Of a stretch of 64,000 nt of DNA, positions 29,016-30,539 are shown piece by piece. The DNA is from Collinsella tanakaei (GTDB lineage Bacteria > Actinomycetota > Coriobacteriia > Coriobacteriales > Coriobacteriaceae): positions 1 through 64,000 of the forward strand of contig NZ_JACJKB010000012.1 in assembly GCF_016900375.1 (NCBI RefSeq), given 5' to 3'. The translations under genes and the position numbers were made by a program. The notes below the pieces were generated by a model. It saw nothing but the letters and a program-made list of their open reading frames with translations, was not told where the DNA came from and ran no database searches. Each line of letters opens with the position of its first letter. Within the stretch, counting starts at the first letter, position 1.

Positions 29016-29067
29016 GTTAAGCCTCCTGTCGAATACCCTCGCTTCCCCGCCCACTCTACCACGTAGG
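29016..29067. repeat. about 50-bp direct repeat, copy 1
   Basis: GTTAAGCCTCCTGTCGA...GCCCACTCTACCA matches 30490-30539 at roughly 85 percent by eye. It carries the ribosome site of the 56-aa gene. The two copies flank the AAA ATPase gene. Confidence 0.85.
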
Positions 29068-29130
29068 CATCAGGGAGTGCCTGCCCCATGCTCCCGCCAT
29101 CGTGCTCGGCAGATATCGACTCGGCGCGTG

Positions 29131-29187
29131 CTCACCTTGTTAGAATTTGCTCACTTTGTTAGAATTTGCTCAACTTGTTAGAATTCG
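29131..29187 (+). promoter_or_regulatory. three 19-bp iterated repeats forming overlapping promoters
   Basis: CTCACCTTGTTAGAATTTG, CTCACTTTGTTAGAATTTG and CTCAACTTGTTAGAATTCG lie head to tail. TTGTTA of one unit and TAGAAT of the next are 17 bp apart, the ideal -35/-10 spacing, so the array makes two overlapping promoters for the ATPase gene. Confidence 0.8.
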
Positions 29188-29207
29188 CATTCAAGATTGG
29201 CAGCACC

Positions 29208-30302
29208 GTGGCACCCAAACGCAAAAACCCTTTCAAGCCAACTGCCGGCATGAATCCTCCCGAGCTTATCGGGCGTGATTCGATTCTCGACGACTTCAGC
29301 GATGCGCTCGAAAACGGGCCCGGGTCTCCCGACCGGCTTGCGCGCATTTCTGGAATGCGCGGCGTCGGGAAGACCGTTCTGCTCAATGCGATGGGGGACA
29401 TTGCCCGTGAGCATGGCTTCCATGTTGTCGACGTTGCCTCCAACCCTGGCTTTTGCAAACGCATCCATGCGGCCCTCACTCGCACCGAACTGGCATCGCT
29501 CTCAATAACGCCAACGATCCTTGGCGTCAGCATCGGCTCAGCAGAACTCTCTAGATCGCCGACCCAGCTCGGAGAAGCCATGTTCAACGCCTCGAAACAT
29601 GGCGGCCTGCTCGTCACGCTTGACGAAATACAGGATGCCCCCCTCGACGAGCTACGGGAGCTTGGCAACGAGATACAGCTGCTCATTCGCCAGGGAGCCA
29701 ACGTCGCTTTCGCATTCGCAGGTCTGCCAACGTCCGTTGACGAGGCGGTTGGCGCCGACACGCTCACGTTCCTGCAGCGTGCAAAGCACATCGAACTCGC
29801 CAAGCTCTCCGATTATGAGGTCGGAGCATCCCTAGAGGACACCGTGCGACGAGCCGGCAAGGAGCTCGTGCACGAAGCGACGCCCCTGCTCACCAAGGCT
29901 GCTGCAGGCTATCCGTTTATGATTCAACTGGTCGGCTACTACACGTGGCAGGCATCGGAACGCCGCGGCTCAGACACCATTGACGCACAAGATGCGCGCC
30001 GCGGCGCGGAGATCGCGCGTGCCAATTTCGACACCATGGTCATCGAGCCCGCGCTCCGCCGGCTACCGCAGAAGCAAATCGAATACCTCGTCGCCATGGC
30101 GCGTTGCCCCGAACAGCCCGCGCAGACGGGCGAGGTCTCCCGCCTTATGGGGCTTTCCACCAAAGACACGAGCTCGTATCGCAAGCGCCTCATCGACGCC
30201 GCCGTCATCGAGAAAGCCGGCTACGGCAGGGTCGCCTTCGCCATCCCCTACATGCGTGAATACCTAGTCGAACACACAGACGAGCTCATCGGCGAGGCAT
30301 AG
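29208..30302 (+). CDS. AAA/ORC-like ATPase with C-terminal winged helix
   Basis: The 364-aa protein opens with a short basic segment then LIGRDSILDDFSDALENG. Walker A is GMRGVGKT (49-56) and Walker B LLVTLDEIQDA (near 138). The C-terminal 80 residues (QKQIEYLVAMARCP..., TGEVSRLMGLSTKDTSSYRKRLIDAAVIEK..., RVAFAIPYMREYL) look like a winged helix. This is the lone archaeal-ATPase/AAA_16-type family common in actinobacteria, function unknown. The GTG at 29208 lies just past the iterated promoters; an upstream TTG frame would translate the repeats. It lies between about 50-bp direct repeats next to a copied clpB tail. Confidence 0.85.
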   Translation: MAPKRKNPFKPTAGMNPPELIGRDSILDDFSDALENGPGSPDRLARISGMRGVGKTVLLNAMGDIAREHGFHVVDVASNPGFCKRIHAALTRTELASLSITPTILGVSIGSAELSRSPTQLGEAMFNASKHGGLLVTLDEIQDAPLDELRELGNEIQLLIRQGANVAFAFAGLPTSVDEAVGADTLTFLQRAKHIELAKLSDYEVGASLEDTVRRAGKELVHEATPLLTKAAAGYPFMIQLVGYYTWQASERRGSDTIDAQDARRGAEIARANFDTMVIEPALRRLPQKQIEYLVAMARCPEQPAQTGEVSRLMGLSTKDTSSYRKRLIDAAVIEKAGYGRVAFAIPYMREYLVEHTDELIGEA

Positions 30303-30371
30303 CAGAGTGCGGTGACCCCGGATCGCTCCGGAGCCGCCGCCCTTGGGAAAATAGTGCCTGCCCCTTTCCCG

Positions 30372-30488
30372 CTATTCGGGAATCTCGTAGGTCGGGACAG
30401 GCCCCGTGGCGTCGGACGCCACGTAGAACGTGCCGTCGGCGTCCACATCGACCGTGATCTGGTCGCCCCCGAGCACGCAGCCGTCGAT
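30372..30488 (-). pseudogene. copied C-terminal tail of clpB
   Basis: Reading [16 protein letters not shown]... to ...PTYEIPE and stop, this 38-codon piece matches the last residues of ClpB ([16 protein letters not shown]... PTYEVPDGE, encoded near 34955-35080). Its left edge joins directly to the second about 50-bp repeat, which supplies GGAGG 7 nt before an ATC codon. It is probably a relic; translation from ATC cannot be excluded. Confidence 0.8.
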
Positions 30489-30489
30489 G

Positions 30490-30539
30490 GTTAAGCCTCC
30501 TGTCGAGCATCCTCACTTCCCGCCCACTCTACCATGTGG
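30490..30539. repeat. about 50-bp direct repeat, copy 2
   Basis: This copy of the region upstream of the 56-aa gene (29016-29067) is fused to the clpB tail fragment instead of that gene. Confidence 0.85.

Follow-up and report, generated by a model that had tools for sequence, protein, structure and literature searches.

Direct-repeat arrays at helical spacing upstream of a family of AAA/winged-helix ATPases are candidate private operators of the genes they precede

Centromere iterons of the ParR/parC type are direct repeats at roughly helical spacing that lie upstream of an operon and are bound by its autorepressor, and Orc1/Cdc6 initiators bind repeated origin sites. BldC, a MerR-like regulator of Streptomyces that consists of a 68-residue winged helix-turn-helix (wHTH) domain without an ATPase and acts at many promoters, forms head-to-tail cooperative filaments on 9-bp direct repeats (PMC5859096). 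RdfS, also a wHTH protein, oligomerizes head-to-tail into superhelices and binds the promoter region of its own gene; it has no ATPase and no clear DNA motif, and it works with a recombinase (PMC11963761). The literature searched, whose coverage left most subscription papers outside, yielded nothing specific on the ATPase family described here or on the arrays that accompany it. We analyzed a member of this family encoded in a stretch of 64,000 nucleotides from Collinsella tanakaei (contig NZ_JACJKB010000012.1, positions 1 to 64,000; hereafter the window) and compared it with its homologues.

The ATPase gene occupies positions 29208..30302 on the plus strand and encodes 364 amino acids, as delimited by Pfam AAA_16, an AF2 model, and alignment of homologues. 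The GTG at 29208 is the most likely start codon, since it places the conserved NPF motif at residues 7-9. The protein scored 35.0 bits against the AAA_16 profile (PF13191), above the curated cut-off of 32.6, whereas the NCBIfam profiles gave nothing usable and no curated Orc/Cdc6 model was among its Pfam or NCBIfam matches. Walker A (GMRGVGKT, residues 49-56) and Walker B (LLVTLDE, residues 134-140) are both intact, and homologue comparison showed the ATPase residues G49, G52, G54, K55, T56, D139, and E140 to be invariant. The AF2 model (mean pLDDT of 82) consists of an AAA core, a helical lid, and a C-terminal winged helix, and neither this model nor the Pfam profiles indicated a domain other than the AAA and winged-helix parts. 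The winged helix spans approximately residues 286-355 (30063..30272, plus strand), based on AF2 secondary structure and on covariation with the array words described below, and includes a predicted recognition helix at residues ~318-330 (30159-30197, plus strand), in which residue 323 adjoins the invariant Tyr324. The nearest solved folds were two archaeal wHTH ATPases and Orc2 (Z of 20-23), followed by ATPases of the NLR/CED-4 type. The AAA/ORC-like ATPase with a C-terminal winged helix given in the preliminary description thus agrees with the profile score, the model, and the Orc/Cdc6-type fold.

Immediately ahead of this gene, at 29129..29185 on the plus strand, lies a tandem array of three 19-bp units, identified by TRF, by a word-chain search, and by comparison with homologues. 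The units are arranged head-to-tail, as had been described, with 92% matches and a TRF score of 100. Each unit resolves into two words of 9.5 bp (TTG-CTCA / TTG-TTAG), so that the array comprises six words, which start at 29128, 29137, 29147, 29156, 29166, and 29175 with spacings of 9/10/9/10/9. The array was significant in the chain search at the floor of the shuffle test (p = 0.016). Both halves of the 19-bp unit are still nearly identical in one relative (L008). In a near relative (L143, L040), the units number two rather than three, and the ATPase is broken across contigs or has lost part of its sequence.

The window array is one case of a family-wide pattern. Homologues were collected from genome collections, with sampling biased to Coriobacteriia and with automatic alignments and start codons. 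Similar arrays had been proposed as something to look for among them, and the result was strongly positive: a period test at 18-21 bp detected an upstream array in 61 of 75 non-redundant homologues, which belong to Coriobacteriia, Bifidobacterium, Corynebacterium, and Actinotignum. At p < 0.01, 75% of the family was positive vs 8% of 180 control upstream regions (Fisher 1e-26), and several of the positive control regions were themselves upstream of family members. Autocorrelation of the family sequences peaked at 9-10, 18-20, 28-30, and 38 bp, and these peaks were absent from the 180 control regions. The chain search, which accepted all spacings of 7-14 bp and used 60 shuffles per sequence, so that p never fell below 0.016, found an array in 69 of 86 homologues. 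Among its 318 spacings, 114 were of 9 bp and 157 of 10 bp (271 together), and only five were of 11 bp. Judged by eye and by the tests, most arrays lie no more than about 120 bp from the start codon.

Pitch and position were constant across the family, whereas the words varied among subfamilies and included TTGTTAGAA, AGGAAA, GGTATAA, CTTCTAAG, and TTTCTGCAG. The pitch is 9 bp in the TTTCTGCAG subfamily (L074), alternates between 9 and 10 bp in the clade of the window and in the AGGAAA subfamily, and is 10 bp for CTTCTAAGTT (L138) and TGCTATACTT (L067). Micrococcales plasmid members also carry arrays (TTTCACC, L174), as does L176, from a mixed-culture record labelled Bacillus subtilis that may be misassigned. 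The more remote homologues in GC-rich Actinobacteria had no arrays, and several had dyads instead; the array is therefore dispensable for the superfamily as a whole. In three of these remote homologues (L210, L213, and L209), the dyads, for example CCTCGACTTTAGC...GCTAAAGTCGAGG, take the place of the array upstream of the gene, which suggests that operators may have switched between inverted-repeat and direct-repeat types within one protein superfamily.

The words followed the recognition helix of the protein encoded next to them. Among pairs of homologues with AAA identity below 40%, those whose recognition helices were at least 50% identical had twice the word similarity, a difference reached in eight of 2,000 permutations. 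Lysine at position 323 was associated with GG-containing words (10 of 13 members, vs none of 49 members without Lys). The same association separates two sister genes: L088 has Gln323 and a word without GG, GCAAAA, and L089 has Lys323 and the word GGGAAAA. In a phylogeny from which the winged helix was excluded, Lys323 arose in separate lineages, and GG followed in 3.6 of four independent contrasts and the opposite never occurred; four events are too few for significance (sign test p = 0.125), and these contrasts are suggestive. In a scan of alignment columns, column 316, where the recognition region begins, came out best, but only one of the 10 best columns fell in the recognition helix, the others being spread along the protein. 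Identity over the whole winged helix was too coarse a predictor of the word (partial rank correlation of 0.09). If each ATPase recognized the array of its own gene, word and helix should covary as observed; we infer such self-reading from this, although it falls short of proof of binding.

We propose that the array probably serves the ATPase as a private operator and as its site of assembly, where subunits would line up head-to-tail, a winged helix at each turn of DNA, and control the promoter of their own gene. The proposal starts from the presence of the arrays across the family, their pitch, their location in cis, and the covariation of word and helix, and from these we infer binding, oligomerization, control by nucleotide, and repression. 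Also in its favor are the resemblance of the fold to archaeal wHTH ATPases and Orc/Cdc6, the restriction of arrays to the ATPase genes described below, and two precedents, BldC for wHTH filaments on 9-bp repeats and RdfS for oligomeric wHTH proteins at their own promoters; the remote homologues without arrays, the small number of Lys323 contrasts, the column scan, and the weak correlation for the whole winged helix count against it. Subunits would bind the array head-to-tail, with the C-terminal winged helix of each in one 9- to 10-bp word, so that neighboring subunits would line the same side of the DNA at intervals of roughly one turn. Contacts between AAA domains would provide cooperativity, probably set by ATP or ADP. 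With the array overlapping or adjoining the promoter, the resulting nucleoprotein row would most likely repress the ATPase gene (autoregulation). The TTGAC box found immediately before the array in most members of the AGGAAA clade would put the array over the core promoter, which also favors repression. Because the words differ, paralogous ATPases would remain orthogonal to one another. Paralogues sampled within single genomes were never close relatives of one another. Two members with different words were observed within a few kilobases of each other in one genome (L090, L095, and L011). A broader version of the proposal, which we offer tentatively and hold to be possible rather than probable, is that these Orc/Cdc6-like ATPases, a large family, are single-gene, self-addressed cassettes that polymerize along DNA from their own arrays at one subunit per turn, with a readable and evolvable helix-word code (Lys323/GG), orthogonal coexistence of several in a genome, and a nucleotide-controlled filament, beyond repression alone, as the working state.

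Distribution of the arrays followed that of the genes. When two array types were searched in 64 genomes of the taxonomic family, they were found upstream of ATPase genes, except for a few orphan sites. Four sites away from listed genes (L183-L186) were re-read, and none had an intact ATPase alongside; one of them (L183) is a solo array with a 3' ATPase remnant. In another genome (G023, L227), an array remnant marks a place where sister genomes still hold the gene. Arrays without a gene thus look like scars of gene loss, since the ATPases listed for those genomes appear to belong to other subfamilies. The genome of the window has no second array site: beyond the three units, matches with two to three mismatches occurred at the control rate. 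Targets in trans were considered and were not found, given this lack of a second site and the resemblance of the re-read orphans to scars. Neither the two array patterns nor the ATPase, the latter searched with strict peptide patterns only, had a match in the IMG/VR viruses.

Family members were present in 49 of 65 genomes, in agreement with the accessory character suggested earlier for the gene. In Collinsella aerofaciens-like genomes, array and ATPase form a block of ~1.4 kb between a conserved gene and tRNA-Ser (4834-6233 in L015). In nine of nine sister genomes tested, the left flank of this block is preserved exactly or up to a few bases, and in eight of them the sequence continues into the right flank with the block absent, indicating that array and gene come and go there as one unit. 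This single-gene, patchy, and in one case tRNA-adjacent lifestyle fits an accessory selfish or defense-like role, short of establishing one. Such a role is the alternative that fared best, in the form of a single-gene cassette in which array and ATPase travel together and the array silences a harmful or costly ATPase until it is needed; we regard it as rather unlikely. The scars left by gene decay and the fold, which resembles ATPases of the NLR/CED-4 type, also speak for it. Against it, the PADLOC models of anti-phage systems, applied to the ATPase alone, gave no match up to E of 1, and the 364 residues contain no STAND effector, sensor, or repeat domain (nSTAND6 matched at E of 0.23 only). 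No gene recurred as a neighbor around 85 homologues, and neither terminal repeats nor a target duplication were recognized at the ends of the L015 block. A selfish or defense-like cassette and a private operator are compatible rather than opposed.

Arrival of the gene as a unit had also been read from the direct repeats of ~50 bp that enclose it in the window. These repeats exist (29016-29084 and 30490-30557; 74-88% identical), but they are copies of a gene leader and do not mark such an arrival. The left copy (29016..29084, minus strand) is the SD-bearing leader (CAGGAGGCTTAACGTATG on the minus strand) of a conserved gene of 56 amino acids (28846..29013, minus strand), which a genus-wide search found in 43 of 43 genomes and which lies outside the ATPase system. 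The right copy (30490..30557, minus strand) is a second copy of this leader joined to a clpB remnant (30372..30489, minus strand), a 3' fragment holding the last ~40 codons and identified by sequence match and synteny. They were accordingly ruled out as the ends of a mobile element. PTS, glycosidase-like, and RpiR-like genes separate the remnant from intact clpB (34955-37588). In relatives without the ATPase, the small gene lies beside clpB (L144 and L146) or beside the PTS gene (L153, L158, and L149), and the direct repeats may thus have resulted from recombination between two arrangements of the locus. Beside the right copy, 30557-30634 holds a perfect inverted repeat of 30 bp with an 18-nt loop, whose arms contain TGTGTCCGTGGGTTTGGTCC. 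With three more hairpins of the same kind elsewhere in the genome, their arms 38 bp apart, it appears to be a dispersed REP- or MITE-like element. Elsewhere in the window, the hexanucleotide CGTGCT is repeated 13.7 times with 100% matches (6778-6859) and encodes a His-Glu repeat, a candidate for slippage, inside a 476-aa ORF (5732-7162, minus strand) that resembles a LarC-type nickel-insertion protein.

The preliminary description had regarded the array as a ladder of promoters. The spacing on which this rested was exactly as described, with TTGTTA 17 bp from the TAGAAT of the next unit at 29137/29160 and 29156/29179. These form two overlapping promoter-like pairs inside the array (29137..29184, the second at 29156-29184; plus strand), vs 0.3 expected in shuffles, and the predicted transcription start lies ~17 nt ahead of the GTG; pairs and start are predictions from sequence. 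A reading of the array as mainly a series of sigma-70 promoters, with expression set by how many there are or with their number changing as units are gained and lost, has in its favor the two pairs in the window and the variation in unit number, which is two in L143 and L007, three in the window, L004, and L009, and five in L005. The ladder does not hold as the essence of the family, however. Of the 62 significant arrays, only 14 had a sigma-70-like pair with at least nine of 12 matches at the array; the trait that the family conserves is thus something other than repeated promoters, and most words (AGGAAA, CTTCTAAG, TTTCTGCAG, and GGTATAA) are unlike promoter hexamers. The number of words was equal among the C. 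aerofaciens-like genomes compared, which argues against hypervariability. We therefore judge a promoter ladder to be an improbable account of the arrays.

A replication or partition module, with the array as origin or centromere and the ATPase acting in initiation or segregation (Orc/Cdc6- or ParR-like), had likewise been suggested, and it received no support. Its attractions are the fold, whose best matches are Orc2 and archaeal wHTH ATPases, the iterons at helical spacing ahead of the gene, and the homologues carried by 115 plasmid records. Those records are, however, rare among the 72,556 searched, as is the single phage record among 50,697, and the family is mostly chromosomal, with zero to seven members per genome that have differing words. 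No partner or motor gene recurred around the 85 homologues, and one plasmid member lies among separate ParA and ParB genes. This reading appears slightly less probable still than the ladder. That AT-rich phased tracts merely bend the promoters and have no specific reader is highly improbable: most words are AT-rich and lie within promoter regions, but the periods are 9-10 and 18-20 bp with little at 11 or 21, where bending tracts would give ~10.5 and 21, control promoters lack the period, some words contain GC (TTTCTGCAG and TTTCACC), and word identity tracks the recognition helix.

A private operator read by its own ATPase would make a widespread family with no assigned role testable, since each member's own promoter would show its likely DNA target. 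Specificity residues become predictable, and dozens of natural word/protein pairs are available. If ATP-gated assembly on one-turn repeats proves true, this mode of DNA reading would be unusual for an AAA+ protein and would also supply parts for orthogonal repressors.

Among the known systems, modules of the ParR/parC type have a motor gene as partner, and none was found near the 85 ATPase homologues. The Orc1/Cdc6 proteins (1w5t, 2qby, and 2v1u) combine AAA+ and winged-helix domains and resemble the window ATPase at Z of 17-20, although the latter is also close to many AAA+ ATPases; unlike theirs, its array lies at a gene promoter, and several differing paralogues occur per genome. The archaeal proteins SSO1545 (2fna) and PABY2304 (2qen) match the window ATPase along almost its full length, AAA core and C-terminal winged helix included (Z of 21.7-22.6), at 12-14% identity, and no report of arrays for them was found in the literature searched. 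Like the ATPase arrays, the sites of BldC are AT-rich direct repeats of variable number at promoters, and the spacing of 9-10 bp fits the ~9 bp per protomer of BldC. Unlike in BldC, the wHTH domain here does not stand alone and is fused to an AAA+ ATPase that makes up most of the protein, the word is specific to each subfamily, and only at the ATPase's own gene was the array found.
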